Assembly (NCBI GenBank): GCA_025965695.1
Contig: JAOPWM010000122.1
Location: forward strand, 1 to 33,658
From: Blastococcus sp.
GTDB taxonomy: Bacteria; Actinomycetota; Actinomycetes; Mycobacteriales; Geodermatophilaceae
DNA length: 33,658 bases
Direction: 5' to 3'
Of the stretch, positions 1,810 to 32,491 are shown one piece after another. Made by a program: the position numbers and the translations under genes. A model generated the notes under the pieces. It worked only from the letters and a program-made list of their open reading frames with translations. It did no database searches and was not told the origin of the DNA. Numbering within the stretch: the first letter of the stretch is position 1; the number at the start of each line of letters is the position of its first letter.

Positions 1810-1822
1810 GCCACTACCCTCC

Positions 1823-1849
1823 GATTGGCCTGTGGTTCACAGGCCAATC
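1823..1849. promoter_or_regulatory. Operator-like perfect inverted repeat between mocR and yczE
   Basis: GATTGGCCTGTG (1823-1834) and CACAGGCCAATC (1838-1849) are perfect 12-base inverted arms with a 3-base spacer (GTT). The palindrome lies just upstream of the mocR ribosome-binding site and a few bases upstream of the putative yczE -10 (CATGCT, 1856-1861), so a dimer bound here could affect both promoters. That MocR is the binder is inferred from position. Confidence 0.7.
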
Positions 1850-1867
1850 ATGAGCCATGCTGGCCGG

Positions 1868-2536: not shown

Positions 2537-2954
2537 CGTCCTCGACCCGGGTCATGACCGCCCAGCGGTGCCCGAAGGGGTCGTAGATCGAGGCGAAGCG
2601 GTCGCCGGTGACGAAGGTGGCCGGCTTCTCGCGCACGGTCGCCCCACGCTCCACCGCCTTGTCGAAGACGGCGTCCACATCGGAGACGTAGATGCAGGTC
2701 GAGCCGCTGACCGTGTCGCCGTCCCGGGCCGGGACGACGAGTCCGTACGCCTCGTTGGGGTCGCTGAGCTGCAGCCGGCCGTCGCCGAGGTCGAGCTCGG
2801 CGTGCATCACGGTGCCGTCGGGGCCGTCCATGCGGCCGACGACGGTCGCCCCGAACACCTCCTCGTAGAAGGTGATCGCGTCTCGGGCGGGCGAGCAGAC
2901 GAGGAACGGGGTCACGGTGGTGTAGCCCTCGGGCTTTCCGTCGGTGATCGTCAT
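2481..2954 (-). CDS. VOC-superfamily (glyoxalase/PhnB-like) protein
   Basis: A 157-residue protein with two beta-alpha-beta-beta-beta modules. It opens with TVTPFLVCSPARDAITFYEEVFGA, as in PhnB/YdcJ-type VOC proteins, and ends its second module with YDPFGHRWAVMTRVEDV, again typical. The acidic C-terminal tail (SPEESERR) often follows this subgroup. Members include metal-dependent lyases, antibiotic-binding proteins and many of unknown function; the substrate cannot be told. ATG 2954 is chosen because a -10-like CACAGT on the minus strand sits seven bases before it, giving a leaderless start. Divergent from the AraC-type regulator with only 27 bases between start codons, so co-regulation is plausible. 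Confidence 0.85.
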   Translation of the reverse strand: MTITDGKPEGYTTVTPFLVCSPARDAITFYEEVFGATVVGRMDGPDGTVMHAELDLGDGRLQLSDPNEAYGLVVPARDGDTVSGSTCIYVSDVDAVFDKAVERGATVREKPATFVTGDRFASIYDPFGHRWAVMTRVEDVSPEESERRLSEWASTEG

Positions 2955-2961
2955 GTCCCCG

Positions 2962-2975
2962 ACTGTGCCTAGGCT
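2962..2975. promoter_or_regulatory. Back-to-back -10 elements for two leaderless divergent genes
   Basis: On the minus strand CACAGT (2967-2962) ends seven bases before the ATG of the VOC gene. On the plus strand TAGGCT (2970-2975) ends six bases before the GTG of the AraC-type gene. Both transcripts would start at or within a base or two of the initiation codon, and both polymerases would compete for the same 30 bases. No Shine-Dalgarno is seen for either gene. Confidence 0.55.
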
Positions 2976-2981
2976 GCGGCC

Positions 2982-3848
2982 GTGGCGTCTTGGAAGAACG
3001 CGACAGGTGCGCTCGACCGCGGTGCGACGCTGCGCGGCATCCTGCGCCCCGCGGAGGTCGCCGAGCAGGCGAACCTGCGCCGCGATGCCCGGGTGGCCGA
3101 GCCGTTGCGGCCCTTCGTGGAGCGGTACTGGTCGGTGCGGTGGCACCTCACCGGGCAGCCCCCCTTCCGCTCCGAGGTGCTCAGCCATCCGAGCGTGAAC
3201 GTCTCCGTGGAGCAGGGCACGCACCCCCGCTTCGGCCACGAGCTGCCCGCGGTCCTGCTGCACGGCGTCGTGACCCGGCGTTTCAGCGTCGACCTCGTCG
3301 GTGCGGGACGGGTGACCGCAGCGAAGTTCCGGCCGGGCGGCTTCGCTGCGTTGACCGGCGTCCTCCCCGGCCGGGACAGCGTGGACCCCCTGGGCCGCCA
3401 GCTCGGGCTGTCGGCCGGCGAGCTGCTGTCCGCCGTCCTGTCGGCGGAGGACGACGACGACCGCGCCGCCGTCCTGGACGCGGCCCTGGCGCCCACGGCG
3501 TCCGAACCGCCCGGCGCCTACCTCGACCTGCTCGGGCTGGTCGGCGCGATGATCGACGACCGCGACCTCGTGCGGGTCGACCAGGTGGCCGCGCTCGGGG
3601 CGATGAGCGTCCGATCGCTGCAGCGGCTGTTCGCGACGTACGTCGGGGTGAGCCCGAAGGCGGTCCTGGCCCGGTACCGGTTGCAGGACGCCGCCGCGGC
3701 CATCGACGCGGGCGAGGTCCACGACCTGGCCGGGCTGGCCGCCTCGCTGGGCTGGTTCGACCAGGCGCACTTCAGCCGGGACTTCCGATCCGTCGTCGGC
3801 ACGACCCCGTCGGCCTACCTGCAGCGGGCCAGGGAGTCGCTCGGCTAG
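2982..3848 (+). CDS. AraC-family transcriptional regulator with DUF6597-type sensor domain
   Basis: A 288-residue protein. The N-terminal half (about 20-150) has the pattern of the DUF6597 domain found before AraC HTHs (LRPFVERYWSVRWHL, then KFRPGGFAAL). The C-terminal third (about 185-285) is an AraC DNA-binding domain with two helix-turn-helices: VDQVAALGAMSVRSLQRLF and DLAGLAASLGWFDQAHFSRDF, ending GTTPSAYLQR. GTG 2982 fits the leaderless promoter TAGGCT-N6-GTG. Its TAG stop overlaps the stop of the convergent MFS gene in the palindrome CTAG. The closest candidate target is the divergent VOC gene, by position only; the ligand is unknown. Confidence 0.88.
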   Translation: MASWKNATGALDRGATLRGILRPAEVAEQANLRRDARVAEPLRPFVERYWSVRWHLTGQPPFRSEVLSHPSVNVSVEQGTHPRFGHELPAVLLHGVVTRRFSVDLVGAGRVTAAKFRPGGFAALTGVLPGRDSVDPLGRQLGLSAGELLSAVLSAEDDDDRAAVLDAALAPTASEPPGAYLDLLGLVGAMIDDRDLVRVDQVAALGAMSVRSLQRLFATYVGVSPKAVLARYRLQDAAAAIDAGEVHDLAGLAASLGWFDQAHFSRDFRSVVGTTPSAYLQRARESLG

Positions 3849-4966
3849 CCGGTCTCCCGGGTCCGCAGTCCGGCCCGGACGACGGGGACGACCGCCAGGA
3901 CGAGGACGGCGACCGCGACCGGACCGCCGATCGCCCAGGCGGTGAACACCAACAGCGACGCCATCTCGACGCCCAGGCCGGCGACCGAGGTGATCGTCGC
4001 CCGGCGCGCGCCGGCGATCCGGGCCTGCAGCCGCGCCTCGGCGACGACGAGCACCGCGAGGTAGAGCGCGTAGAAGGCCGCGACGACGGCGAGCGCGGCG
4101 GGGCGCGCCCAGACCGCGGCTCCGGCGAGGCAGCCCGCCGCTGCGACGAGGAACGCGAGCAGCGTGCCTGCGCGCAGCCGGTCGGCCCGGCCACCCAGTG
4201 CGGCACCGGCGGCCCCGGCGAGCGCGATGACGAGCACCGCGACCGGGACGGCGGGCGTCGCCACTCCCCAGTCGCCGGCGAGGACGGGGAAGTACTCCTC
4301 GATCGCGTCCAGGCCGCCGATCAGCGCCACGGCGAGCACGAGGACGCGCAGCGGCGGGTTGCGCAGCGCCTCGCCGAGGCCCTGCCGGAGGGTGACCCCG
4401 AGCGAGTCGTCGTCCTCGGCTGTCCGTGGCGCCTCGGGGAACCGCAGCGCCAGGGCGGCGGCGGCCAGGCAGGTCGCGACGCTGACCCACCCGACGAGCG
4501 CATAGCCGCCGACGGCGTACAGCGCACCAGCGGCGAACGCCGTCGGAACCTGGACCAGCAGCTCGGCGGAGACCATCCAGCCGTTGACCCCGACGTAGCA
4601 GTCCGCGGCACCGACCGCGGCCAGCGCGTCGTAGACCAGGGCCTCGCTCGCGCCGGACACCAGTGCGCCCGAGATGCCCCACACCACGAAGCCGACGGCG
4701 AAGGCCCACGCCTGCGGCGCCGCCGTCCAGACCACGAAGGCGGCAGCCTGGAGAAAGCCGGCCAGGACCACGACCCCGCGCCGGGACCACCGGTCCGCGA
4801 GGGCGCCCGAGGGCACCTCGGTGACGAACCCGGTCACCGCCCAGATCGCGAAGAGCGCCGAGATCTGGGCGTCGGAGAGGCCGGTGTCGAGGAAGAGCAG
4901 CGCATAGAGCGGGTAGTACGGAACCAGCTCGGACAGCGCGGCCCAAGCCACCGCGAGCCGGGCCAC
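3845..4966 (-). CDS. Major facilitator superfamily transporter
   Basis: A 373-residue protein with about 12 hydrophobic helices. After the second helix it carries EVPSGALADRWSRRGVV, matching the MFS loop 2-3 signature (G-x-x-x-D-R-x-x-R-R), so this is a confident MFS call, drug/metabolite efflux-like in appearance; substrate unknown. The only usable start that gives an uninterrupted frame is GTG 4966, which lacks a Shine-Dalgarno. Fifty-four bases upstream there is a well-formed leaderless start (TAGCGT-N6-ATG 5020) in the same frame, but it meets TGA after four codons. The gene may therefore carry a 5' nonsense mutation or be translated by reinitiation. Stop overlaps the AraC gene stop by four bases. 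Confidence 0.82.
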   Translation of the reverse strand: MARLAVAWAALSELVPYYPLYALLFLDTGLSDAQISALFAIWAVTGFVTEVPSGALADRWSRRGVVVLAGFLQAAAFVVWTAAPQAWAFAVGFVVWGISGALVSGASEALVYDALAAVGAADCYVGVNGWMVSAELLVQVPTAFAAGALYAVGGYALVGWVSVATCLAAAALALRFPEAPRTAEDDDSLGVTLRQGLGEALRNPPLRVLVLAVALIGGLDAIEEYFPVLAGDWGVATPAVPVAVLVIALAGAAGAALGGRADRLRAGTLLAFLVAAAGCLAGAAVWARPAALAVVAAFYALYLAVLVVAEARLQARIAGARRATITSVAGLGVEMASLLVFTAWAIGGPVAVAVLVLAVVPVVRAGLRTRETG

Positions 4967-5005
4967 CGACCGGGCGGCGGGCGGAAGTGCGTTCGGAGAC
5001 GGGCG

Positions 5006-5032
5006 TCAACGGAACGGCATGGGCGGACGCTA
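5006..5032 (-). promoter_or_regulatory. Leaderless start and four-codon leader in frame with the MFS gene
   Basis: On the minus strand TAGCGT (5032-5027) is followed six bases later by ATG 5020, then codons for Met-Pro-Phe-Arg and TGA (5008-5006). Past the stop the frame stays open for 13 codons to the GTG at 4966. It is either a natural mini-ORF or the original start broken by one base change. Confidence 0.45.
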
Positions 5033-5078
5033 GCGCCGTCCTCGGCCCTGCGCACCCGATGTGCCCGTGACTGTCGGC

Positions 5079-5194
5079 TACTCTTGCTGACGAAGGGGAG
5101 TAGCCCCCCGTCCGCTGGTCGACATGCTGGCGCGCCTTCACCGGCCGCCCGGTCAGTGGGTCCACGTCCCTGACGTGGATGGGCGAGACCTTCG
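5079..5194 (+). ncRNA. yybP-ykoY manganese riboswitch, with -10 element
   Basis: The leader begins CGAAGG (5091-5096), which pairs perfectly with CCTTCG (5189-5194) to close the P1 helix. Just inside are the two invariant strands of the yybP-ykoY class: GGGGAGTAG (5095-5103) on the 5' side and GGGCGAGACC (5181-5190) on the 3' side. Between them GTCCACGTCCCTGACGTGGAT forms a hairpin and other helices. In studied members the two loops dock to form a Mn2+ site and Mn2+ turns expression on. A -10-like TACTCT (5079-5084) sits seven bases before P1. The aptamer ends about 70 bases before the UPF0016 start; the expression platform is not obvious, and control could be at translation. Confidence 0.88.
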
Positions 5195-5267
5195 ACTGAT
5201 GCAGCCTGCGCTGCCGGTCGGAGGCTGCCTGCATCCGCCCGGCACTGCCGAGTGGAAGAGGAATTCT

Positions 5268-5867
5268 GTGGTCCTGTCGGTCATCGCGGCCGCGTTCATC
5301 CTGGTGCTGCCCGTGGAGCTGCCGGACAAGACGCTGTTCGCCACTCTCGTCCTGGCCACCCGGTTCCGGCCGTTGCCGGTGTTCGTCGGTGTCGGGGTGG
5401 CGTTCGCCGTCCAGTCGCTGATCGCGGTGGCTGCCGGCAGCCTGCTCACACTGCTGCCCGACGCCGTGGTGAGCGGCGTCGTGGCGCTGTTGTTCCTGGT
5501 CGGTGCGCTGATCCTGTGGCGCAGCGTCCGCAGCGGCGCCGAGGAGGAAGAGGACCTCGTCGACGCGCCCGCACACCCGTCGTTCCTCAAAGCCGCCGCG
5601 ATCTCGTTCGGGGTGCTCTTCGCCGCGGAGTGGGGCGACCTCTCCCAGTTGGCCACCGCCGGTCTCGCCGCCCGCTACGACGACCCGGTGTCGGTGTTCA
5701 TCGGCTCCTGGGCAGCGCTGCTCGTGGTGTCCGCGCTCGCCGTGTTCCTCGGCAAGAAGCTGGCCGACAAGCTGCCGATCCGGCTCATCCGCCTCGTCGC
5801 GGCGATCCTGTTCTCGGTGTTCGCCGTCATCGCGGTGATCGAGACGATCCGCCTCCTCACATCCTGA
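5268..5867 (+). CDS. UPF0016/TMEM165-GDT1 family cation (Mn2+) exporter
   Basis: A 199-residue membrane protein with two homologous three-helix halves, each carrying the family's acidic motif: PVELPDKTLFATL near the N-terminus (E-x-P-D-K-T) and FAAEWGDLSQLATA in the second half (E-W-G-D-L-S). These motifs form the cation site in the GDT1 family, which exports Mn2+ in bacteria and moves Mn2+/Ca2+ in eukaryotes. A hydrophilic acidic linker (GAEEEEDLVD) separates the halves. GTG 5268 is preceded by AGAGGAA (5257-5263) at suitable spacing; longer frames would run back through the riboswitch. Control by the upstream manganese riboswitch independently supports the Mn2+ role. Confidence 0.9.
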   Translation: MVLSVIAAAFILVLPVELPDKTLFATLVLATRFRPLPVFVGVGVAFAVQSLIAVAAGSLLTLLPDAVVSGVVALLFLVGALILWRSVRSGAEEEEDLVDAPAHPSFLKAAAISFGVLFAAEWGDLSQLATAGLAARYDDPVSVFIGSWAALLVVSALAVFLGKKLADKLPIRLIRLVAAILFSVFAVIAVIETIRLLTS

Positions 5868-5937: not shown

Positions 5938-6690
5938 ATGAACGTGGGTGAGGTCGCGGCGCTGGCCGGCGTCACGGTGCGCACGCTGCACCACTACGAC
6001 CGCATCGGCCTGCTGTCGCCGTCCGGGCGGACGGCGGCCGGCTACCGGCAGTACTCGGCGGCCGATCTGGACCGGCTGCACCAGGTGTTGCTCTACCGCG
6101 AGCTCGGGTTCTCCCTCGAGGACGTCGCGACGCTCCTGGACGCGCCCGACGCCGATCCCGAGGCGCACCTGCGCCGCCAGCACCGGCTGCTGCGGGACCG
6201 ACTCGAGCGCACCCGGGCCATGGTCGCGGCCGTCGAGAAGGAGATGGAGGCACGCAGCATGGGGATCTCACTGACCCCGGAGGAGCGGTTCGAGGTGTTC
6301 GGCGACTGGTTGCCCGAGGAGTACGAAGCCGAGGCCGAGGAGAAGTGGGGCGACACCGACGCGTGGGCGCAGTCCCAACGGCGGACGCGCAGCTACTCGA
6401 AGAACGACTGGGTGCGGATCAAGGCCGAGGGCGACGACATCGAGCGCCGCTTCGCCGCCGCACTGCAGTCCGGCGCCGCCCCTGACTCGGCCGAGGCGAT
6501 GGACCTGGCGGAGGAGCACCGGCAGCAGATCACCCGGAACTTCTACGACTGCCCACCCGCGATGCACGCCGGTCTCGGTCGGATGTACGTCGAGGACGAG
6601 CGGTTCACTGCCCACTACGAGCAGATCGCGCCCGGCCTGGCGCAGTACGTGAGCACCGCGGTCCAGGCCAACGCCGCCCGCCAGGGATGA
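5938..6690 (+). CDS. TipA-type MerR-family regulator with TipAS antibiotic-recognition domain
   Basis: A 250-residue protein. Residues 1-70 are a MerR winged helix (VGEVAALAGVTVRTLHHYDRIGLL, then GYRQYSAADLDRL). Residues about 75-107 form a coiled-coil dimerisation helix. Residues 108-250 match the TipAS domain (LTPEERFEVFGDWLPEEYEAEAEEKWGDTDAW), which in Streptomyces TipA binds thiopeptides. ATG 5938 follows GAAGGGAGG at good spacing; a longer frame from 5878 would start inside the promoter and is rejected. The gene follows its own MerR-type promoter. A second in-frame ATG at codon 108 with a perfect GGAGG may yield the ligand-binding domain alone, as known for tipA. Ligands other than thiopeptides are possible. 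Confidence 0.92.
   Translation: MNVGEVAALAGVTVRTLHHYDRIGLLSPSGRTAAGYRQYSAADLDRLHQVLLYRELGFSLEDVATLLDAPDADPEAHLRRQHRLLRDRLERTRAMVAAVEKEMEARSMGISLTPEERFEVFGDWLPEEYEAEAEEKWGDTDAWAQSQRRTRSYSKNDWVRIKAEGDDIERRFAAALQSGAAPDSAEAMDLAEEHRQQITRNFYDCPPAMHAGLGRMYVEDERFTAHYEQIAPGLAQYVSTAVQANAARQG
6246..6261 (+). promoter_or_regulatory. Internal ribosome-binding site and start for a TipAS-like short form
   Basis: GGAGG (6246-6250), eight bases, then ATG at 6259-6261, which is codon 108 of the MerR gene and the first residue of the ligand domain. The product would have 143 residues. Streptomyces tipA makes a 144-residue short form from an internal start at the equivalent place. Confidence 0.65.
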
Positions 6691-6700
6691 CGCCGCCCGG

Positions 6701-6760
6701 ACGAGATCTGCACACTGGCCCTCATCAGCGGCTTGATGGGGGCGAGTGTGCAGATCTCGC
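6701..6760. repeat. Palindromic intergenic repeat, copy 1 (convergent gene ends)
   Basis: Perfect 15-base arms CGAGATCTGCACACT (6702-6716) and AGTGTGCAGATCTCG (6745-6759), with the stem continuing inward (CCCTCATCA against TGATGGGGG, one G-T pair) to a six-base loop. It fills the gap between the MerR gene and the convergent methyltransferase. A second copy of the same length lies at 11081-11140. There is no T-tract, so terminator activity is uncertain. Confidence 0.85.
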
Positions 6761-6764
6761 CGGG

Positions 6765-7559
6765 TCAGACGCGGATGAGCAGCTCCCCGTGGAGCATGCC
6801 GAGCCAGCCGTCGTCGGCGTCGCGCCAGCTCAGCCAGGCGGCCGCGATCTCCTCCAACTCCGCCTCCGACGCCAGCCCGTAGGCCACCGCCTGCTCGGCG
6901 AACGCTGACGCGGTCGCCCGGCCGGCCCACGAGTTCCCCCACCACTCGCGCTCGGCCGGCGTCCCCCAGCACCAGGAGGTCGTCGTCGCCACGGTGTCCC
7001 GAAGCCCCGCCGCGTGCGCCCACGACAACAGCCGTCGGCCGGCGTCGGGCTCGCCCTCGTTGCGCCGGGCCACCCGGTAGTACAGGTCGAGCCAGCGATC
7101 GAGGCCGTCGTCGGCGGGGAACCACGAGACCGCGCCGTAGTCGACGTCCCGCACCGCGACCACGCCGCCCGGCCGGCACACCCGCGCCATCTCCCGCAGC
7201 GCGGCCACCGGGTCGGTCAGGTGCTGAAGCACCTGGTGGGCGTGGACGACGTCGAAGGTGTCGTCGGCCGCCTCGAGCGCGTAGACGTCGCCGACCTCGA
7301 ACGAGACAGGGATCCCGGCGCGATCGGCCGCGGCCCGCGCCTCGGCCAGCGGGTCCGCGGAGACGTCCAGCCCGACCACCCGGCCCGGCGCGACGCGGGC
7401 GGCGAGGTCCACGGTGATCGTCCCGGGACCGCATCCGACGTCGAGGAGGTCGAGGCCCGGCCGCAGCACGGGCAGGAGGTAACCGGCGGAGTTCTCGGCG
7501 GTCCGCCAGCGGTGCGACTGGAGCACCGGCTCGGCATGGCCGTGGGTGTACGTATCCAC
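6765..7559 (-). CDS. Class I SAM-dependent methyltransferase (UbiE/COQ5-like)
   Basis: A 264-residue protein with a Rossmann methyltransferase core: motif I LLDVGCGPGTITVDLA (about residues 35-50), the acidic end of strand 2 (VVGLDVS), GDVYALEAADDTFDVVHAHQVLQHL around motifs II-III, and ALREMARVCRPGGVVAVRDVDYG as the post-III region. The C-terminal third, with the tryptophan-rich TTTSWCWGTPAEREWWGNSWAGR, probably covers the substrate pocket. Similar proteins act on small molecules or quinones; the substrate is unknown. GTG 7559 is selected because AAGACT lies six bases upstream on the minus strand (leaderless pattern) and the product then starts as homologues do (VDTYTHGHAEPVLQSH). Stand-alone gene, convergent with the MerR gene. 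Confidence 0.88.
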   Translation of the reverse strand: MDTYTHGHAEPVLQSHRWRTAENSAGYLLPVLRPGLDLLDVGCGPGTITVDLAARVAPGRVVGLDVSADPLAEARAAADRAGIPVSFEVGDVYALEAADDTFDVVHAHQVLQHLTDPVAALREMARVCRPGGVVAVRDVDYGAVSWFPADDGLDRWLDLYYRVARRNEGEPDAGRRLLSWAHAAGLRDTVATTTSWCWGTPAEREWWGNSWAGRATASAFAEQAVAYGLASEAELEEIAAAWLSWRDADDGWLGMLHGELLIRV

Positions 7560-9403: not shown

Positions 9404-11077
9404 GTGCCCGAGCAGCCGGAACTGACGATCCAGGGCTGGGGCCCGGCCGGCCCCAGCACCACCACCGCCACCTCGCCCGCGCCCGACGGGGACCTCAGCA
9501 GCGCGCTGCCGAAGGCCGCCCGCCGCTACCTGGCCAAGGAGCTTGGCTGGTCCCCCCGGCCGACCCCGCCGGTCGCCGTCGCCGACATCTCGGTGGCGCC
9601 GTCCCGGCTGCCGGAGGAGGCCCGGGCCCGCTTCGTGGAGCTGCTCGGCGAGGAGAACGTCCGCACCGACCGGGAGTCGCGGCTGCGCCGGGCCGGCGGC
9701 AAGAGCTACCTGGACCTGCTGCGCCGGCGCGAGGGCGACGCCTCCGACGCCCCGGACGCCGTCGTCCTGCCCGGCACCACCGAGGAGACCGCCGCCCTGC
9801 TGACCGCCTGCAGCGAGCTCGGCGTCGTCGTCGTCCCGTTCGGCGGTGGGACGAGCGTCGTCGGCGGCCTCGCCGGCGTGGACCCCGACGACCGGCCCTC
9901 GGTCGCGCTCGACCTCGGCCGGATGTCATCGCTGCGGTCGCTCGACATCCCGTCGTCGCTGGTCACCGTGGGCCCCGGCATGCGCGGCCCGGCGCTGGAG
10001 GAGGAGCTCTCCCGTGAGGGGCTGACCTTCGGTCACCTGCCGCAGAGCTGGGAGTTCGCGACGATCGGCGGGTACGCCGCGACGCGCTCGGCCGGGCAGA
10101 ACTCCACCGGCGTCGGCCGGTTCGACGAACTCGTCGCCGGCCTGACCCTCGCCACGCCGGCCGGAGTGCTGGAGCTGGGCCATCCGCCCGCGACCGCCGC
10201 CGGCCCCGACCTGCTGGGCCTGGCCCTCGGCTCGGAGGGCACCCTCGGGGTGATCACCGAGGTGACGCTGCGAATCCGCCCCAAGCCCACCAGCTGCTCC
10301 TACGAGGGGTGGTCGTTCCGCTCCTGGCCGGCCGGGCTCGCGGCGATGCAGCACCTGGCGCGGCACGGCCTGCTGCCCGACATCGTGCGGCTCTCCGACA
10401 CCGACGAGACCCGCGCCAACCTGCTCATGGCTTCCGGCACCGGCGCCCGTGCGCTGCGCAGCACCCTGAAGACCCGGGGTCACGGGGAGGGGTGCCTGCT
10501 CGTGCTGGGCTGGGAGGGCGTGCCGGCCCTCGTCCGGGCCCGGATGAAGGCCGCTGCCTCGCTGCTGCGGGACGGCGGGGCGATCCGGTTGGGCCGCCGG
10601 GTCGGGGAGTCGTGGAAGAGCCACCGGTTCGCCGCCCCCTACCTGCGGGACACGCTGATGGACGCCGGCCTGCTGGTGGAGACGCTGGAGACGGCGGCCA
10701 CCTGGTCGAAGCTGCCCACCGTCTACGACGCCGTCCGCCGGGCCCTGCGCGAGTCGCTGACCCGCGACGGACGGCGGCCGCTGATCATGAGCCACGTCTC
10801 GCACGGCTACGCGACGGGCGCCTCGCTGTACGTGACGGTGCTCGCCGACCGCGACGACGCCCTGCCCATCCAGCAGTGGCTGACGGCCAAGCGGGCGGCG
10901 ACGGACGCGCTCCTGGCCGCCGGCGGGACGCTCACCCACCACCACGCCGTCGGCGCCGACCACCGCCCCTGGATGGAGCGGGAGGTCGGGCCGCTGGGCG
11001 TCGAGGTGCTGCGCGCGGTCAAGGAGCGGCTGGACCCGAAGGGCGTCTGCAACCCCGGCGTCCTGCTGCCGGACTGA
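9404..11077 (+). CDS. AGPS-like FAD-binding oxidase (alkyldihydroxyacetonephosphate synthase family)
   Basis: A 557-residue flavoprotein of the VAO/FAD_binding_4 plus FAD-oxidase_C type. The FAD domain (about 110-300) shows VVLPGTTEETAALL, PFGGGTSVVGGLAG, GHLPQSWEFATIGGYAATRSAGQNS and GLALGSEGTLGVITEVTLRI. The C-terminal domain has SHVSHGYATGASLYVT and GGTLTHHHAVGADHRPW; the triple histidine matches the active-site histidines of alkyl-DHAP synthase, which swaps the acyl chain of acyl-DHAP for a fatty alcohol in ether-lipid synthesis. Mycobacterial homologues are annotated only as flavoproteins. Pairing with divergent glpD, which makes DHAP, fits the role. GTG 9404 follows the leaderless pattern. 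Ether-lipid synthesis is an inference; a D-lactate or glycolate-type oxidase is less likely because of the HHH motif. Confidence 0.85.
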   Translation: MPEQPELTIQGWGPAGPSTTTATSPAPDGDLSSALPKAARRYLAKELGWSPRPTPPVAVADISVAPSRLPEEARARFVELLGEENVRTDRESRLRRAGGKSYLDLLRRREGDASDAPDAVVLPGTTEETAALLTACSELGVVVVPFGGGTSVVGGLAGVDPDDRPSVALDLGRMSSLRSLDIPSSLVTVGPGMRGPALEEELSREGLTFGHLPQSWEFATIGGYAATRSAGQNSTGVGRFDELVAGLTLATPAGVLELGHPPATAAGPDLLGLALGSEGTLGVITEVTLRIRPKPTSCSYEGWSFRSWPAGLAAMQHLARHGLLPDIVRLSDTDETRANLLMASGTGARALRSTLKTRGHGEGCLLVLGWEGVPALVRARMKAAASLLRDGGAIRLGRRVGESWKSHRFAAPYLRDTLMDAGLLVETLETAATWSKLPTVYDAVRRALRESLTRDGRRPLIMSHVSHGYATGASLYVTVLADRDDALPIQQWLTAKRAATDALLAAGGTLTHHHAVGADHRPWMEREVGPLGVEVLRAVKERLDPKGVCNPGVLLPD

Positions 11078-11080
11078 GCG

Positions 11081-23788: not shown

Positions 23789-25429
23789 TCAGTGCTGGAC
23801 GGCCTTCTCCGCCCCGATCCCGGTGAACGCGCGCACCTCGAGCTCGGCGGACTTGAGCTCGTCCGGCTGCTCCTTGGACAGCTTCGTGCCGAGCCAGCCC
23901 AGGAAGAACGAGAGCGGGATCGACACCAGACCCGGGTTGTTCAGCGGGAACCAGTGGAAGTCCACGTTCTGGAACAGCGACGGGCTCACCCCCGTCGTCG
24001 GGTTCTTCGGCGCCCCGGAGACGACCGGCGAGAAGATGATCAGCCCGACGCAGGCGATCAGCCCGCCGTAGATCGACCACAGCGCGCCCTGGGTCGTGAA
24101 CCGCCTCCAGAAGAGCGTGTAGAGGATCGTCGGCAGGTTCGCCGAGGCGGCGATGGCGAACGCGAGCGCCACCAGGAAGGCGATGTTGATGCCCGCCTGC
24201 AGGGCCAGGATGCCCAGCGCGATGGAGAGGGCACCGATCACCACAGCGGTGACCCGGGCGACCCGCACCTCGCCGTTCGGCGGCACGTTGCCCTTCTTGA
24301 TCACCGACGCGTACACGTCGTGCGCGAAGGACGCCGACGCGGTGATCGTGAGCCCGGCGACCACCGCGAGAATCGTCGCGAAGGCGACCCCCGAGATGAT
24401 GCCCAGGAGAGCGGTGCCGCCCAGTTCGAATGCGAGGAGCGGGGCGGCGGCGTTGACCGCTCCGGGCGCCTTGAGGATCCGGTCGGCACCGACGAGGGCT
24501 CCGGCGCCGTAGCCGATCACCAGGCTGAACAGGTAGAAGATGCCGATCAGCCAGATGGCCCAGACCACCGAGCGGCGGGCGTCCTTCGCCGTGGGCACGG
24601 TGTAGAAGCGCATCAGCACGTGCGGCAGCCCTGCCGTCCCCAGGACGAGCGCGAGGCCGAGCGAGACGAAGTCGAGCTTCGACGTGCCCGTGGCGCCGTA
24701 CTGCGCGCCCGGGGCGAGGACGTTGACGCCCGCCCTCGCGTTGTCCTGCGCCCCGCCGAGCAGCGACGACAGGTTGAACCCGTACTTGCCGAGCACCCAC
24801 ACGGTCATCACGAACGCACCGATGATCAGCAGCGAGGCCTTGATCACCTGTACGTACGTGGTGCCGCGCATGCCGCCGACGAGCACGTAGAAGATCATCA
24901 GCGCACCGACGATGGTCACGACCACGGCCTGCGCCGCGTCACCGCTCACCCCGAGCAGCAGGGTGACCAGCCCGCCCGCGCCGGCCATCTGCGCCAGCAG
25001 GTAGAACAGCGAGACGACCAGGGTCGAGATCGCCGCCGCCATCCGCACCGGGGCCTGGCGCATCCGGAAGGCGAGGACGTCGGCCATCGTGAACCGCGCC
25101 GTGTTGCGCATCAGCTCGGCGACCAGCAGCAGCGCGACGAGCCACGCCACCAGGAACCCGATCGAGTACAGGAAGCCGTCGTAGCCATAGACGGCGATGG
25201 CGCCGGCGATGCCCAGGAACGAGGCAGCAGACAGGTAGTCACCCGCGATGGCCAGGCCGTTCTGGGTGGGGCTGATGTTGCGGCCGGCCGCGTAGTAGTC
25301 GGCGGCGCTCTTGTTGTTGCGGCTGGCCCGGAAGGTGATGACCAGCGTGATGAGGACGAAGACGCCGAAGATCGAGATGTTGATCGCCGGCTCACCGATG
25401 CTGCCCTCGGCAGCGAGCAGCTCAGGCAC
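23789..25429 (-). CDS. actP: Sodium:solute symporter, acetate/monocarboxylate type (ActP/MctC-like)
   Basis: A 546-residue membrane protein of the SSS family with about 13 helices. Typical ActP/MctC segments are RNNKSAADYYAAGRNISPTQNGLAIAGDYLSAASFLGIAGAI near the N-terminus (the SSS signature with the Na+-site helix), GLPHVLMRFYTVPTAKDARRSVVWA, and ITASASFAHDVYASVIKKG. It brings in acetate, and in MctC also pyruvate and propionate, driven by a cation gradient. GTG 25429 overlaps the end of the DUF485 gene by eight bases, so translation is coupled. The pair corresponds to yjcH-actP of E. coli; acetyl-CoA synthetase is not in the window. A hairpin follows the stop. Confidence 0.92.
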   Translation of the reverse strand: MPELLAAEGSIGEPAINISIFGVFVLITLVITFRASRNNKSAADYYAAGRNISPTQNGLAIAGDYLSAASFLGIAGAIAVYGYDGFLYSIGFLVAWLVALLLVAELMRNTARFTMADVLAFRMRQAPVRMAAAISTLVVSLFYLLAQMAGAGGLVTLLLGVSGDAAQAVVVTIVGALMIFYVLVGGMRGTTYVQVIKASLLIIGAFVMTVWVLGKYGFNLSSLLGGAQDNARAGVNVLAPGAQYGATGTSKLDFVSLGLALVLGTAGLPHVLMRFYTVPTAKDARRSVVWAIWLIGIFYLFSLVIGYGAGALVGADRILKAPGAVNAAAPLLAFELGGTALLGIISGVAFATILAVVAGLTITASASFAHDVYASVIKKGNVPPNGEVRVARVTAVVIGALSIALGILALQAGINIAFLVALAFAIAASANLPTILYTLFWRRFTTQGALWSIYGGLIACVGLIIFSPVVSGAPKNPTTGVSPSLFQNVDFHWFPLNNPGLVSIPLSFFLGWLGTKLSKEQPDELKSAELEVRAFTGIGAEKAVQH

Positions 25430-25808
25430 GGGAGGCCCCTTCGGTCGTACCGGTGCCGTCGCCGCGCGCGAACTCGTGGTGCTCGAGGCGGTTGCGCATC
25501 TCATCGGCGATCGGGTCGGTGTTCCGGTTCGCGTGCGACACGTAGAGGTGCGTGATCGCGAACGTCGAGACGAACTGCAGCAGGCCGAAGATCAGGCCCA
25601 CGTTGATGGTGCCGATGACATCGGTCGACATGAAGTCGTGCGCATAGGTCGAGAGCAGGACGAACAGCAGATACCAGACCAGGAAGGCGACCGTCATCGG
25701 GAAGGCGAACCGCCGGAACCGGCGCTTCAGCTCGACGAACTCCGCCGAGTTCTGCGCCGCCAGGTACTCCTCCGGCGACAGCAGTCGGCGTTCGTTGGGT
25801 TCACTCAC
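25422..25808 (-). CDS. DUF485 membrane protein, YjcH-like partner of ActP
   Basis: A 128-residue protein with two central membrane helices (FAFPMTVAFLVWYLLFVLLSTYA and GTINVGLIFGLLQFVSTFAITHLYVSHANR), the DUF485 arrangement. The N-terminal EEYLAAQNSAEFVELKRRFRRF precedes the first helix as in the family. Its C-terminal tail is charged and cytoplasmic. DUF485 proteins almost always accompany ActP-type symporters and are thought to assist them. GTG 25808 is chosen because GGAGAG lies about seven bases upstream and the product then has normal family length; a longer open frame upstream has no family features. First gene of the operon. Confidence 0.9.
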   Translation of the reverse strand: MSEPNERRLLSPEEYLAAQNSAEFVELKRRFRRFAFPMTVAFLVWYLLFVLLSTYAHDFMSTDVIGTINVGLIFGLLQFVSTFAITHLYVSHANRNTDPIADEMRNRLEHHEFARGDGTGTTEGASRA

Positions 25809-25856
25809 AGAGCACTCTCCAGTCCAGGACACCTGCGCGGGACTTCGGGCTTTAAA

Positions 25857-25872
25857 TGTGGCGTCGGTCACT
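25857..25872. promoter_or_regulatory. Possible CRP/GlxR-type site upstream of the yjcH-actP operon
   Basis: TGTGG-CGTCGG-TCACT matches the CRP/GlxR consensus (TGTGA-N6-TCACA) at eight of ten arm positions, about 50-65 bases upstream of the DUF485 start. Acetate uptake genes are common cAMP-regulator targets. The surrounding gap 25809-25976 holds no gene. Confidence 0.3.
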
Positions 25873-25976
25873 GTAAGGGCTACTCGCAGCTTCCTCAGGT
25901 CACAACTGGAACAAGGCGTTGCACAAACGCTCAATCGGCGTAACCGGCTCCTCATGCGGCTGCGCTGCAATTGCTC

Positions 25977-27311
25977 ATGGCAACGCACACGTCAGCGACC
26001 GCTCCGATGACGACGGGCTGGTACCCGGTGGTCCGGGCCGCCGAGGTGGGGACGACGCCGGTGCCGGTGGGCGCCGGTGGGCAGGCGTACGTGGTCGTCC
26101 GGTTGCGGTCCGGCGGCGAGGTGAGCGCCTTCCCGTCCCGATGCCCGCACCGCCTCGTACCGCTGGCCGCCGCCTCGGTGGTCGACGGCCGGCTGCAGTG
26201 CCCGGCACACGGCTGGCGGTTCGACGCGGAGGGCCGCTGCGTGGACATCCCGTCGCTGGGTCCGCACGGCACCCCGCCACCGCGCGCCGACCTGCCGACG
26301 CCGTGGGCGGTCGAGGAGCGGCACGGCTGGGTCTGGCTGGCACCGGAGCGGACGTCGACCCCGGTACCGGCCACGGCCTCGGTGGCGCCCGAGCGCGCGG
26401 CGGCACCGCCCGATCCGGGCGGATCGGCCTTCGACAACCTCGACCCGTCCCTCGAGCACGCCTGGCACCCGGTGGCGCTCTCGCGGGAACTGCGGCCGGG
26501 CGGCTGGCTGCAGGTGCGGCTCCTGGGTCGGAACTGGACGCTCCGCCGGGCCGGCCGGGACGAGGGCGGGGCCCTGACCGCCGATCCACCCGCGTTCGGC
26601 GTCCGCGAGCGTCTCGGCGTCCTCTGGCTGGCTCCGGCCGAACCGGCCGACGTCCCGCTGGACGTGCCCGAGGCCGCCGACCGCACCTTCGTGATCAGCT
26701 GGCTGCCCCCCGCGCGCTCACCCGGCCCGGCCGGTCCGCTGGCCGACACGTTCCTCGACGCGACGCACGGCCCGTTCGTCCACGCGTCCACGATCGGTGC
26801 GCCGGACCAGGCGGAGGTCGCCCCGGCGCCGGTCGCGACCGAACCGGGCGGCTTCCGAAGCGTCCAGGAGCAGTGGTGCGACAACCCGGTGGACCCGGAG
26901 GTCGCCACCGGAGGGCGGCCGCTCCGCCAGCGAAGGCGCACGACGTACACCTACCGGGCGCCGTTCCAGCTGCGCCTTCGCCAGGAGTTCCTGGACTCCG
27001 GCGCGACGACGACGATCCTGTACCTGTTGCAGCCCGAGGACATTGACTCGACGCGAATCTTCGTCTGCCTGTTGCTCTCCTCCGGCCCGGGGCTGCCGCT
27101 GCCCGCCCCCGCCGACGTGGCCGAACAGGTGGCGCTGCAGCACCGGATCCTCGAGGAGGACGTCCGGTCGCAGGCGGCGCTCGCCGTGACCGGCCTGCCC
27201 CTGGACCTGCGCGACGAGGTGCACGTGCCCGCCGACCGGCTCGGTGTGGCGCTCCGGCAGGCCCTGTGCGGCTTCATGGCGGTCGGCCGCCGGCAGCAGG
27301 CGGTCGCCTAG
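25977..27311 (+). CDS. Rieske-type oxygenase alpha subunit with a second, degenerate Rieske-like segment
   Basis: A 444-residue protein. Residues about 12-122 form a Rieske domain with [2Fe-2S] ligands C56-x-H58 and C75-x2-H78 (CPHR and CPAHGW), ending PWAVEERHGWVWLAP. Residues about 160-222 look like the same fold again (HAWHPVALSRELRPG-GWLQVRLLGRNWTLRR, then AFGVRERLGVLWLAP) but lack all four ligands and the part between. A catalytic domain follows with D261-x2-H264-x4-H269 (DATHGPFVH), the mononuclear-iron motif of VanA/dicamba-type oxygenases. The conserved asparagine before it is replaced. No reductase or ferredoxin gene is adjacent. ATG 25977 is the first good start; no Shine-Dalgarno is evident. 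Substrate unknown. Confidence 0.85.
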   Translation: MATHTSATAPMTTGWYPVVRAAEVGTTPVPVGAGGQAYVVVRLRSGGEVSAFPSRCPHRLVPLAAASVVDGRLQCPAHGWRFDAEGRCVDIPSLGPHGTPPPRADLPTPWAVEERHGWVWLAPERTSTPVPATASVAPERAAAPPDPGGSAFDNLDPSLEHAWHPVALSRELRPGGWLQVRLLGRNWTLRRAGRDEGGALTADPPAFGVRERLGVLWLAPAEPADVPLDVPEAADRTFVISWLPPARSPGPAGPLADTFLDATHGPFVHASTIGAPDQAEVAPAPVATEPGGFRSVQEQWCDNPVDPEVATGGRPLRQRRRTTYTYRAPFQLRLRQEFLDSGATTTILYLLQPEDIDSTRIFVCLLLSSGPGLPLPAPADVAEQVALQHRILEEDVRSQAALAVTGLPLDLRDEVHVPADRLGVALRQALCGFMAVGRRQQAVA

Positions 27312-27312
27312 G

Positions 27313-27501
27313 TCAGTCGTCGGGCAGGTCCGCGCCGCAGGCCGGGCAGCGGGTCGGCGGGTTCTCGTCGGCCAGCCGTCCGCACGCCGGGCAGACCCGG
27401 CGCACCCAGCACGCCGGGTCCCCGCCCTCCTCGTCGGGCAACGAGGGCAGTCGCTCGGGACCGGTCACGGGGCCAGCGTCCCACCACGGTCTGATCTGCA
27501 T
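27313..27501 (-). CDS. Small zinc-ribbon protein
   Basis: A 62-residue protein with a C-terminal zinc ribbon: C37-P-A-C40 and C52-P-A-C55 (VCPACG ... RCPACGADL), plus an extra cysteine at 31. The N-terminal half (MQIRPWWDAGP, then an acidic LPDEEGGDP) is soluble. ATG 27501 has GGAGG close upstream (three-base gap, tighter than usual). It is convergent with the Rieske gene, one base separating the stops. Such short zinc ribbons are common in actinobacteria and mostly uncharacterised. That it is a real gene is supported by the two well-spaced CPAC knuckles. Confidence 0.65.
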   Translation of the reverse strand: MQIRPWWDAGPVTGPERLPSLPDEEGGDPACWVRRVCPACGRLADENPPTRCPACGADLPDD

Positions 27502-27552
27502 GTCCCTCCGGGGGACGACGAGATCTCCGGCCGATCTGCCAGGGTCGACGCA

Positions 27553-28353
27553 ATGGAGAGGTCCCCGGCTGTCGACCGCGTCGGGCAGTGGGCCCGTGCG
27601 CACCCGTTCGCCGTAGACCGCTGGCTGGCCGCTGCCGTCGTGTTCTGCACCGTGCTCCTGCCGGCCCCCGGCTACTGGGAGGCGCCGGCCTACTCGTTGC
27701 TGCTCGGGCTGCTGCTGACCGTTCCGGTGGCCTGGCGCCGCCGCGCCCCGGTGGCCGCCGCCGCTGCGGTCGTCGCCGCCGGGCTGATCCAGCTCGTCAC
27801 CCTGAACTCATTCCTCGCCGCCGACGTCGCCGCGCTGTTCATGATCTACGCCCTCGCCGCGTACGCCCCCCGGTGGGCGTCCCGCGGCGGTCTCGCCCTC
27901 GGCCTGTTCGGTGCGCTCCTCGCCGCCCTGCGCTACTTCTCCACGAGCTTCTCCGCTCAGCTCCTCCCGACAACGGGCGCGATCGCCGTCGCGGTGGTGG
28001 CCTCGTGGGCACTGGGCGACCTGCGCCGGGCCCAGCTGCAGCGGTTCGACTCACTGGAGGAACGCGCCCGTCTGCTGGAGGTCGAGCGGGACCAGGAGAT
28101 GCGGCTGACCGCCACCGCCGAGCGCACCCGGATCGCCCGCGAGCTGCACGATGTGGCTCGCCCGCTCCGGGCGCTCGGGCTCGCCCGTGGGCAGCTGCAC
28201 GGGCTCCTGGGCTGGGAGGCGGTTCTCGTCGCGGGCGTCGCGGCCCTCCTCGGGGTGCTGCTCGGCGGCGCCTACGGGTTGATCGGGGCGGCGTCGGTGC
28301 TGCCGGCCCGCCGGGCGGCACGGACCTCTTCCGTGGCCGCAATCGCCGCCTGA
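27553..28353 (+). pseudogene. Chimeric remnant: sensor histidine kinase 5' part fused in frame to FtsX-type permease 3' part
   Basis: The 266-codon frame joins pieces of different proteins. Residues 1-200 are the membrane sensor half of an actinobacterial LuxR-type histidine kinase: several helices, a coiled coil (LEERARLLEVERDQE) and the start of HisKA_3, ERTRIARELHDV with the phospho-acceptor His199. The normal continuation and the whole ATPase domain are absent. From residue about 203, RALGLARGQLHGLLGWEAVLVAGVAALLGVLLGGAYG is the C-terminal region of an FtsX/MacB-type ABC permease, and after a second skip VLPARRAARTSSVAAIAA is its very end. Deletions thus seem to have removed the kinase 3' end, probably genes between, and most of a permease. 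ATG 27553 still has CAGGGT seven bases upstream, so it may be transcribed. Confidence 0.8.
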
Positions 28354-28426
28354 CTGCCGCGAGCCCCCGGTGTGACGTTGCCCGGGTTGGCTCGGGACGC
28401 ACAGCATCGGCTGGGACACTGGAACC

Positions 28427-29641
28427 GTGCCGTCCCGCTCAGCTCTCCGCAGTGCCACCCTCACCGCCGCCGTGCTCGCCTGGCCGGTGGGCTTCGTCAC
28501 CCGCGCCGCCTGGGGTCTGCCCACCGCCCTCGGTGCGCACCGCCGCCGGCTGCGCCCGGTCGTGGCCGGCTCCCCGCACTTCTCCGACGGCACGTTCCAC
28601 AACACCCTCGAGACCCCCGCCCTGGCCCCGGCGAACACCCGCGACGGGCTGCTGCGGCAGTGGCACGACGAGCGGTACGTCGGCCTGCCCGGTGGGCCCA
28701 TCCCCCTGGCGACGACGGACTTCCCCGCAGAGGCCGCGGAGCTGGCGGTCACCTGGCTCGGTCACGCCAGCGCGTTGCTCGAGATCGACGGTCAGCGCGT
28801 GCTCCTCGACCCCGTCTGGGGCTATCGCGTCTCGCCGTCACCGGTGTTCGGGCCCACCCGCCTGCACCCGGCGCCCGTCCCGCTGGAGGATCTTCCGCAG
28901 GTCGACGCCGTCCTGATCTCGCACGACCACTACGACCACTTGGACCTGCCGACGGTGCGGGAGCTGCTGAGGACGCAGTCCGCGCCGTTCGTCGTCCCCC
29001 TCGGCATCGGCCAGCACCTGCGCAAGTGGCACGTGCCCGAGGACCGCATCGTCGAGCTCGACTGGGACGGCGAACACACGGTGGGCGGGCTGACGTTCAT
29101 CTGCACCGAGGCACGGCACTTCTCGGGGCGCTACTTCTACCGCAACACCACGCTGTGGGCCTCGTGGGCGATCGCCGGCCCGCGGCACCGGGTCTTCTTC
29201 GGCGGCGACACCGGCTACACCCCCGCGTTCGCCGGCATCGGCGCGCGCCTGGGCCCCTTCGACCTGACCCTGCTGCCGATCGGCGCCTACAACGACGCCT
29301 GGCACGCCATCCACATGGACCCGGAGGAGGCGGTCCGCGCCCACGGCGACCTCGGGGGTCGCGTGCTCCTGCCGATCCACTGGGCCACGTTCAACCTGGC
29401 CTTCCACCGCTGGGCCGAGCCGGTGCAGCGGCTGCTGGCCGCCGCCGGGCGGGTGCGCGCGCAGATCGTCGTCCCCCTGCCCGGTCAGCGGATCGACGTG
29501 CTCGACCCGCCGGAGCTCGACGACTGGTGGACGGCGGTCGACTCCTCGACGGACCGCCCGGAGCACCGCCGCGACGCCGGCGTGGGCAGCGCGGTGCTGT
29601 CCCGCACGTTCTCCCGGATCCTGGCCCTGCTCCCCGACTGA
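28427..29641 (+). CDS. Metallo-beta-lactamase-fold hydrolase, NAPE-PLD/UlaG-like
   Basis: A 404-residue protein. After an N-terminal hydrophobic stretch it shows FSDGTFHNTLE and then the metal-binding fold: VTWLGHASALLEIDGQRVLLDPVWG, the H-x-H-x-D-H motif in ISHDHYDHLDLPTV, EARHFSGR, FFGGDTGYTPAF, and PIGAYNDAWHAIHMDPEEAV followed by PIHWATFNLAFH. This order is that of the N-acyl-phosphatidylethanolamine phospholipase D-like branch, although many bacterial members have unknown substrates. The N-terminal 30 residues may tether it to the membrane. GTG 28427 fits GACACT-N6. A 32-base gap leads to codA on the same strand, so read-through is possible, but codA has its own -10-like box. Confidence 0.88.
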   Translation: MPSRSALRSATLTAAVLAWPVGFVTRAAWGLPTALGAHRRRLRPVVAGSPHFSDGTFHNTLETPALAPANTRDGLLRQWHDERYVGLPGGPIPLATTDFPAEAAELAVTWLGHASALLEIDGQRVLLDPVWGYRVSPSPVFGPTRLHPAPVPLEDLPQVDAVLISHDHYDHLDLPTVRELLRTQSAPFVVPLGIGQHLRKWHVPEDRIVELDWDGEHTVGGLTFICTEARHFSGRYFYRNTTLWASWAIAGPRHRVFFGGDTGYTPAFAGIGARLGPFDLTLLPIGAYNDAWHAIHMDPEEAVRAHGDLGGRVLLPIHWATFNLAFHRWAEPVQRLLAAAGRVRAQIVVPLPGQRIDVLDPPELDDWWTAVDSSTDRPEHRRDAGVGSAVLSRTFSRILALLPD

Positions 29642-29673
29642 CCGACGGGCCGCCGTCACACCAGGGTGCCAGG

Positions 29674-30945
29674 GTGGACAGCGTGATCGATCTGTTGCTG
29701 CGCAACGCCGTCCTGCCCCGGACCACCACCCCGGTCGACCTCGCGATCGACGGGGGCGTGCTCGTGACCGCCGAGGGTCAGGAGGCCCGCGAGAGCCTCG
29801 ATCTCGGCGGGCGGCTGGTCACCCCGCCGCTGGTCGAGCCGCACATCCACCTCGACGCCGTCCTCACCGTCGGCCAGCCGCGGCCGAACGTCAGCGGCTC
29901 GCTGTTCGAGGGGATCGCCGTGTGGGCCGACCGGGTCGCAGACCTCACCGTCGACGACGTGAAGGACCGCGTCCGGAAGGTCCTGCGCTGGCAGGTCGCG
30001 AACGGCGTCCAGACGGTCCGCAGCCACGTCGACGTATGCAATCCCCAGCTGACGGCGCTGCGTGCGCTGGTCGAGCTGCGCGACGAGGTGAAGGACATGG
30101 TCGGCCTGCAGTTGGTCGCGTTCCCGCAGCAGGGCATCCTCGGTTTCCCCGACGGCAAGAAGCTCATGGAGAAGGCCGTCGACCTCGGCGCGGACGTCGT
30201 CGGCGGCATCCCGCACTACGAGCTCACCCGCGAGGACGGCGTGGCGTCGGTGGAGTTCCTCATGGCCCTGGCCGACGACCGCGGGCTGCTCGTCGACGTG
30301 CACTGCGACGAGACCGACGACGAGCACTCGCGGTTCGTCGAGGTCATGGCCGCCGAGACGATCCGCCGCGGGATGGCCGGCCGGGTCACCGCCTCGCACA
30401 CGACCGCGATGCACTCCTACAACGCCGCCTACGCGTATCGGCTGATCAACAACATCAAGCGGGCCGGTATGCACATGGTCACCAACCCGCTGGACAACGC
30501 CGTCCTGCAGGGCCGCTTCGACACCGGGCCGATCCGGCGTGGGCACACCCGGGTCAAGCAGCTGCAGGCTGCTGGCGTGACCGTGTGCATCGGCCACGAC
30601 TCGGTGATGGACCCCTGGTACCCGCTGGGCTACGGCGACCCGCTGCAAGCGGCGTTCGTGCTGGCCCACCTCGGGCACATGAGCGGGTCGGAGGAGCTGC
30701 CGCGGCTGATCGACATGATCACCACGGACGCCGCCCGGACGCTCGTCCTGCCCGAGAATCTGCTGCGTCCCGGCGACCCGGCTGACCTGGTGGTCTTCGA
30801 TGCGCCCACGGACGTCGACGCCCTCCGCCTCGTAGCGCGCCGCACGCTGGTCCTGCGCGGGGGCCGGGTGCTCGCCCGGTCCGAGCCCGCCCGCACGACG
30901 GTGCTGTGGGACGGCGTGGAGGAGGACGTGAGTTTCCTCCGCTGA
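29674..30945 (+). CDS. codA: Cytosine deaminase-family amidohydrolase
   Basis: A 423-residue amidohydrolase aligning along its whole length with E. coli CodA: HIHLD metal ligands near the N-terminus, SGSLFEGIAVWADR, TVRSHVDVCNPQLTALRAL, LVAFPQQGIL (the substrate-amide glutamine), VHCDETDDEHSRF with the metal histidine and catalytic glutamate, TASHTTAMHSYN, and GHDSVMDPWYPLG with the metal aspartate. The residue after that aspartate is serine where E. coli CodA has Asp314, a position known to affect substrate choice; isoguanine, creatinine or a related ring is therefore possible. GTG 29674 is set by CAGGGT six bases upstream; GTG 29683 is the alternative. A convergent CodB-like permease lies 13 bases beyond. 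Confidence 0.88.
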   Translation: MDSVIDLLLRNAVLPRTTTPVDLAIDGGVLVTAEGQEARESLDLGGRLVTPPLVEPHIHLDAVLTVGQPRPNVSGSLFEGIAVWADRVADLTVDDVKDRVRKVLRWQVANGVQTVRSHVDVCNPQLTALRALVELRDEVKDMVGLQLVAFPQQGILGFPDGKKLMEKAVDLGADVVGGIPHYELTREDGVASVEFLMALADDRGLLVDVHCDETDDEHSRFVEVMAAETIRRGMAGRVTASHTTAMHSYNAAYAYRLINNIKRAGMHMVTNPLDNAVLQGRFDTGPIRRGHTRVKQLQAAGVTVCIGHDSVMDPWYPLGYGDPLQAAFVLAHLGHMSGSEELPRLIDMITTDAARTLVLPENLLRPGDPADLVVFDAPTDVDALRLVARRTLVLRGGRVLARSEPARTTVLWDGVEEDVSFLR

Positions 30946-30958
30946 CCCCCCGCCGTTC

Positions 30959-32413
30959 TCACGCGCGGGTGGAGACATCCCCCTCGGCGACGCCGGGGAG
31001 CACCAGCACGGCGTCCTCCGGCTCCGCGCCGCGCTGCGTGCGGAAGAGGATCAGGTACAGCCCGCCGGCGATGAGGAACCCGACGAAGAAGGCGATGTCC
31101 CCGAACTCGGGCACGGCCTTGGGCACCAGCCCCGTGTACAGGGTCTGGTCGGCGAACAGCCAGACCGAGATCACGATGCCCACGAGCATCGAGACCCAGC
31201 CCGCGTAGGGGCGGTGCTGCCGGTCGAAGAGGAAGCCGTCCACCCGGTGTCCCCGCCGCACATACCAGTCGGCGAAGACCACCCCGAGCCACGGGCCGAT
31301 CCAGTAGCTGATGACCAGCAGGAAGTTCTCGTAGGACTGGACGTCCTTCAGCCCGAGGAGCGCCACGATCAGGCCCAGCACGCCGAAGGCGACAGCCGTG
31401 ATCGCGCGGGCGGCCTTGAGCGGGAGATGGAAGCCCATCGCGGTGAACGACAGCGCGCCCGAGTAGACGTTGATGGCGTTGGCCGCGACGGCGCCGAGGG
31501 CGATCGCCAGCAGCGTGAGGTCACCGACGACCGTGCCGAGGTGCGAGGTGAAGGCGGTCGTCGGGTTCAACCCGGCGTCGGTGGCGATGCTCGTCGAGGC
31601 CGCACCGGCCAGCTCGAGGATCGTGCAGGAGAGGAAGACGCCGAGCCCGGCGGACAGTCCCGTCTTCTTCTTCGCCGTGTCGGGCGGAAGGTACCGGGTG
31701 TAGTCCGCCGCGTAGGGGTTCCAGCCGGCGGCGTAGCCGAAGGTCGCGCCGACGATGATCAGGAAGCCGCCGATCCCGGCGCCGGTACCGGCCGCGGAGT
31801 AGTCGGCCTTCAGGAAGGTCACGACGCAGGCGATCGCGAAGATGATCCCGAGCACCGGCGCCGCGTACCGCTCGAAGGCCTGGACCAGGTTGTGCCCGAA
31901 GAAGGCGATCACGATCTGCAGGGCGACGACGACGAGCAGGCACAGCCACGAGGGCAGGTCGGTGAGCGAGTTCAGCGCCAGCGCCCCGCTGACGCTGTTC
32001 ACGGCGAACCAGCCGATTCCCGCGACCACGGCGTTCAGCCCAGCCGGCAGGGCGTTGCCGAACCAGCCGAACGGGATGCGGGACAGCACCATCTGCGGCA
32101 CGCCGTACTCCGGACCACGGGAGGAGAGGACGCCGTGGGTGAAGGCGCCGAGCCCCGTGCCGAGCAGGATCGCCAGGGCCGCCTGCCAGAACGAGAGCCC
32201 GATGATGCCCGTGGCCAGGACCCCGAGGAACACGGTGGCGAACTCGAGGTTGGGCGACAACCACGTCCAGAGGAGCTGGATCGGCTTGCCGTGCCGTTCG
32301 TGGAGAGGCACGAACTCAGCACCGCCGGGCTCGACGGCGATGACCTTCGTGCCGTACTCACCTGGTCGGACGTCGGCGACGACGGTCTCTGACTGTGCTG
32401 CGGTGGTGTCCAT
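30959..32413 (-). CDS. NCS1-family nucleobase permease, CodB-like
   Basis: A 484-residue membrane protein with about 12 helices. The family start is clear (YGTKVIAVEPGGAEFVPLHERHGKPIQLLWTWLSPNLEFATVFLGVLA), as are PQMVLSRIPFGWFGNALPAGLNAVVAGIGWFAVNS in helix 3, GYAAGWNPYAADYTRYLP in helix 6 and YWIGPWLGVVFADWYVRR in helix 10. NCS1 carriers import cytosine, purines, allantoin or hydantoins with a cation. Its convergent placement beside codA favours the same substrate as that enzyme. ATG 32413 has GGAG six bases upstream; ATG 32425, four codons earlier, has its GGAG directly adjacent, too close to work. A 78-base gap separates it from the HAD gene upstream. Confidence 0.9.
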   Translation of the reverse strand: MDTTAAQSETVVADVRPGEYGTKVIAVEPGGAEFVPLHERHGKPIQLLWTWLSPNLEFATVFLGVLATGIIGLSFWQAALAILLGTGLGAFTHGVLSSRGPEYGVPQMVLSRIPFGWFGNALPAGLNAVVAGIGWFAVNSVSGALALNSLTDLPSWLCLLVVVALQIVIAFFGHNLVQAFERYAAPVLGIIFAIACVVTFLKADYSAAGTGAGIGGFLIIVGATFGYAAGWNPYAADYTRYLPPDTAKKKTGLSAGLGVFLSCTILELAGAASTSIATDAGLNPTTAFTSHLGTVVGDLTLLAIALGAVAANAINVYSGALSFTAMGFHLPLKAARAITAVAFGVLGLIVALLGLKDVQSYENFLLVISYWIGPWLGVVFADWYVRRGHRVDGFLFDRQHRPYAGWVSMLVGIVISVWLFADQTLYTGLVPKAVPEFGDIAFFVGFLIAGGLYLILFRTQRGAEPEDAVLVLPGVAEGDVSTRA

Positions 32414-32491
32414 CGACCACTCCATCTCCCGGGCGCATGCTGCGCGCGGCAAAGGTAGAACCTCCGACGGCCTGGTGAGGTATCGAGCCGG

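Follow-up and report, generated by a model that had tools for sequence, protein, structure and literature searches.

The open frame at 27553–28353 (plus strand) of the window, the whole 33,658-nucleotide stretch of Blastococcus sp. DNA analysed here, is very probably a deletion remnant, or pseudogene, of a locus that encoded a histidine kinase, a response regulator, an ABC ATPase and an FtsX-type permease, with the frame left open by chance. Sensor-kinase/ABC-transporter loci of this kind are common in actinobacteria. Most likely, internal deletions fused the start of the first gene to the end of the last, and the result is a decaying remnant rather than a new protein. An intact ancestor is found at the syntenic place in a relative, and the middle of the cluster is missing from the source DNA, which is the pattern that marks a deletion-derived pseudogene. 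As a counterpoint, no stop codon or frameshift lies inside the frame.

Composition of the open frame

The frame comprises 266 stop-free codons encoding 266 amino acids, and its two halves (residues 1–201 and 205–266) match separate genes, which bears out the proposal in the initial annotation of an in-frame kinase–permease chimera. The first half (27553–28155, plus strand) comes from the 5' end of a gene for a DUF7134/HisKA_3 histidine kinase. The membrane sensor domain is present, as shown by a DUF7134 match at residues 12–160 (Pfam, E 7.5e-38, above cut-off). The HisKA_3 dimerisation domain is incomplete, being represented at residues 190–201 by profile positions 1–12 of 68 only; this stub stops two residues past the phospho-acceptor histidine of the RELHDV motif, which is residue 199, as first described. 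Pfam finds no HATPase_c catalytic domain in the frame, whereas the kinase of Blastococcus sp. CT_GayMR16 (G007) has one. The second half (28165–28353, plus strand) is the 3' tail of an FtsX-type permease with its own stop codon, and corresponds by tblastn to residues 727–820 of the G007 permease minus 32. Here the Pfam signal is weak and below cut-off (residues 205–242; E 0.019 for the whole protein and 0.0092 for the tail alone) and covers profile positions 33–70 of 120, with the full FtsX domain or domains and the permease body missing. Direct homology, obtained by searching the halves separately, is far stronger: residues 1–201 reach 79% identity to kinases (79% to that of G007 and 75% to that of a second relative, G014), and residues 205–250 reach 89% identity to permease C-termini over 46 residues. 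By hydropathy, the sensor piece is predicted to have about four hydrophobic helices and the permease piece one hydrophobic stretch.

Both the start and the stop codon are the ancestral ones, the ATG aligning with an ATG in the closest relatives. Of the promoter-like box and start reported earlier, the start holds; for the box, a scan limited to promoters of the sigma-70-like type, and so blind to other actinobacterial types, found none in 27300–28500. A small zinc-ribbon open reading frame on the minus strand (27313–27603, weak Pfam hits, start approximate) overlaps the 5' end of the kinase piece. Judged by its domains, the 266-residue product would be unable to work as a kinase, being without the ATPase domain and the rest of HisKA_3, or as a transporter, being without the ATPase and the permease body.

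The intact cluster and the deletion junctions

The intact cluster stands at the syntenic place in the draft genome of CT_GayMR16 (loci L069 and L064), where DNA identity to the source is about 87%. The order there is Rieske – histidine kinase – NarL-type regulator – MacB-like ATPase – FtsX permease – metallo-beta-lactamase, with proteins of 413 (kinase; DUF7134, HisKA_3 and HATPase_c), 229 (regulator), about 260 (ATPase) and 820 residues (permease; two FtsX stretches, ADOP-like, below cut-off). Domain scans run on the G014 copy identify the regulator as Response_reg plus GerE and the ABC ATPase as MacB/LolD-like by NCBIfam, below the equivalog cut-offs. G014, which a tree of the flanking genes places as the sister lineage to the source genome, has the kinase, regulator and ATPase intact at the edge of a 4.8-kb contig. 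The same two flanking genes are present in the window, namely a Rieske/VanA_C oxygenase gene on the left (25971–27311, plus strand, Pfam) and a gene for a metallo-beta-lactamase-fold protein on the right (28427–29641, plus strand, Pfam), both syntenic in relatives. Compared with the intact clusters of Geodermatophilaceae (DUF7134 kinase, NarL/LuxR-type regulator, MacB-like ATPase, FtsX permease), the frame has the same flanks, order, start, stop and retained sequence, but of roughly 1,700 codons only about 263 remain, and no full kinase, regulator, ATPase or permease. The origin of both pieces in one ancestral two-component/ABC locus, at first put forward as an inference, is supported by this intact syntenic cluster and by the clean deletions in the source. 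Farther to the right, 29641–32452 carries two genes that CT_GayMR16 does not have at the matching place: one for cytosine deaminase (NCBIfam PRK09230, above cut-off) and, facing it, one for an NCS1-type nucleobase transporter.

By blastn, the source DNA is colinear with the CT_GayMR16 locus save for three gaps, of about 5.26 kb, 96 bp and about 55 bp. In the reverse complement of L069, source positions 24007–28168 correspond to 1383–5530, 28164–28301 to 10785–10922, 28290–28362 to 11007–11080, and 28364 onward to 11135 onward. The first junction (J1, 28153–28166, plus strand; 5530 to 10785 on L069) marks the loss of everything between kinase codon 201 and permease codon 727, namely the remainder of the kinase, the response regulator, the ABC ATPase and most of the permease; in the junction alignments the two ends may share a few bases at most. 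The second (J2, 28290–28301, plus strand; blastn, tblastn and junction alignment) is an in-frame deletion of 96 bp at a 9-base direct repeat (TCGGTGCTC in G007, copies 96 bases apart), and it leaves the permease with little of its last hydrophobic helix. A second internal skip had been noticed in the initial annotation and is real, although its size is 32 residues and not roughly 35. The third difference (J3, 28354–28372, plus strand; blastn and junction alignment) is a stretch of about 55 bp, an imperfect palindrome and possible terminator, which in G007 follows the permease stop and which the source DNA does not have.

In bacterial deletion-derived fusion pseudogenes, illegitimate deletion brings truncated genes together where homology is short or lacking. 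The remnant here is joined likewise; what sets it apart is its open frame, an outcome that chance alone should produce fairly often. The large loss at J1 may have occurred by illegitimate end joining with little homology, which is possible because the source genome encodes Ku, and the small loss at J2 probably by slippage or annealing between the short repeats. The frame would have survived both losses by chance, at 1/3 per junction and 1/9 for the two.

Selection, chance and competing explanations

An alternative raised at the outset would have the cell keep and express the chimera as a small membrane protein; a decoy sensor anchor would be one conceivable role. Both of its junctions are in frame, the ancestral start and stop are kept with no stop codon between them, and a codon model rejects omega = 1 over the whole source branch. 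Against this, chance alone would leave the frame intact one time in nine. Random substitutions yield a stop 2.3% of the time in this frame, and a divergence of 0.05 neutral substitutions per site should give about 0.9 stops, with a probability of no stop of 0.40, so that the absence of stops is unremarkable. Another, non-coding frame here is equally open, over 265 codons, and the openness of the chimeric frame therefore says little. The rejection of omega = 1 covers a branch that includes the time before the deletion, and is to be expected if the deletion fell part-way along it; if the kinase piece is now neutral, the loss must therefore be recent. Thus, the open frame and the two in-frame junctions need no selection to explain them, and in GC-rich DNA a chimeric frame that happens to be open is no evidence of a new fusion protein.

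Substitution rates in the kinase piece point the same way, albeit mildly. From three-way pairwise estimates, branch dN is about 0.11 for the source versus 0.03 for G007 and 0.05 for G014, whereas branch dS is similar (0.21, 0.25 and 0.21, respectively). In the codon model, omega is 0.169 on the source branch versus 0.086 in the background, a borderline difference (2dlnL 3.56), and the flanking genes show no comparable rise on this branch. Relative-rate tests are significant with some outgroups only, and at family-invariant columns the source departs at 3 of 40, making it no outlier among 39 sequences. We do not take dN/dS as proof either of neutrality or of selection, the data being underpowered and borderline; the faster evolution of the kinase piece fits, without proving, a recent loss of constraint. 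It is in any case an acceleration and not the extra conservation that would favor a retained protein, the last helix of the permease is mostly cut away, the same fusion was seen in none of the relatives searched, and where the locus left remnants independently, these have lost the frame or contain a stop. We therefore regard retention as improbable. More doubtful still is the specific notion that a new in-frame membrane protein is expressed and kept, where it might titrate a sensor ligand or interfere with a paralogous DUF7134 kinase on contig C262. This paralog (36% identity) is paired with a regulator (54%) in the same genome (G000:C262:24175–25982; L002, L084).

It is similarly improbable that the operon is intact and that misassembly brought two distant parts of it together. 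The source assembly is a draft of 317 contigs and 81.5% completeness, and the junction is known from one genome and from the assembly sequence alone. But J1 has no long repeat to mislead an assembler, the same remnant carries the separate 96-bp loss, and the locus has suffered losses in other genomes as well. Moreover, the missing cluster genes were not found anywhere else in the source draft (from which about 18% of the genome is absent), where the best regulator match is only 54% identical. A second, intact copy was considered and rejected, as none was found, including of the permease, in the draft.

Collapse of the locus across Geodermatophilaceae

None of the 98 relatives searched, nor any fetched locus, was seen to have the same kinase–permease fusion. 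A widespread fused family is accordingly rejected: the halves match separate genes, and in fetched loci holding both, some 5 kb usually separates the kinase from the permease tail, the two exceptions being collapsed. Two long matches that might have been fusions (G007, query 1–254; G014, query 1–250) proved to be intact kinases; the remaining long matches were assessed through their separate permease match rather than read individually. A literature search returned no paper whose title or abstract deals with this kinase/FtsX fusion or pseudogene, and one on Blastococcus gene loss likewise returned none.

The kinase is strongly matched (E below 1e-40) in 37 of the 57 other family genomes searched (hand count). 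Other members of the family have collapsed the kinase/ABC locus separately and with different breakpoints. In Blastococcus atacamensis P6 (L048), as in our frame, a kinase N-terminus is joined to a permease C-terminus at the same locus; in contrast, the breakpoints are kinase 172 and permease 689, the join is out of frame, and the Rieske gene is truncated too. In G051, a kinase with an internal stop is followed by the permease from about residue 427. Finally, in five Blastococcus genomes (G001, G002, G006, G009 and G015), little DNA separates the Rieske gene from the lactamase gene, and it contains no kinase or permease match.

Two of these intervals have features of their own. That of G006 (L107, contig C89) holds, at about 1530–2250, a frame-broken fragment resembling the source cytosine deaminase (NVSGSLFEGIAV). 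In G009, a single-contig genome, the interval is about 1.4 kb (L106, about 1820–3200) and one frame in it resembles a small lipoprotein; the G009 Rieske gene itself aligns in two frames. In Modestobacter (L039, L040, L042, L043, L045, L047 and L049, about 6001–7120), two DUF7134-type matches stand in tandem with a spacing of about 0.5 kb, which would fit a duplication of the sensor domain within or beside the kinase.

Taken by itself, the remnant is ordinary gene decay; what gives it some modest value is that an intact operon, collapsed intermediates and complete absences line up at one place in one family. The collapsed loci of B. atacamensis and G051, together with the absence in five genomes, indicate that the locus is dispensable and has collapsed more than once. 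This line-up in Geodermatophilaceae shows a signalling and transport locus that the family can do without and that internal deletion has repeatedly collapsed.
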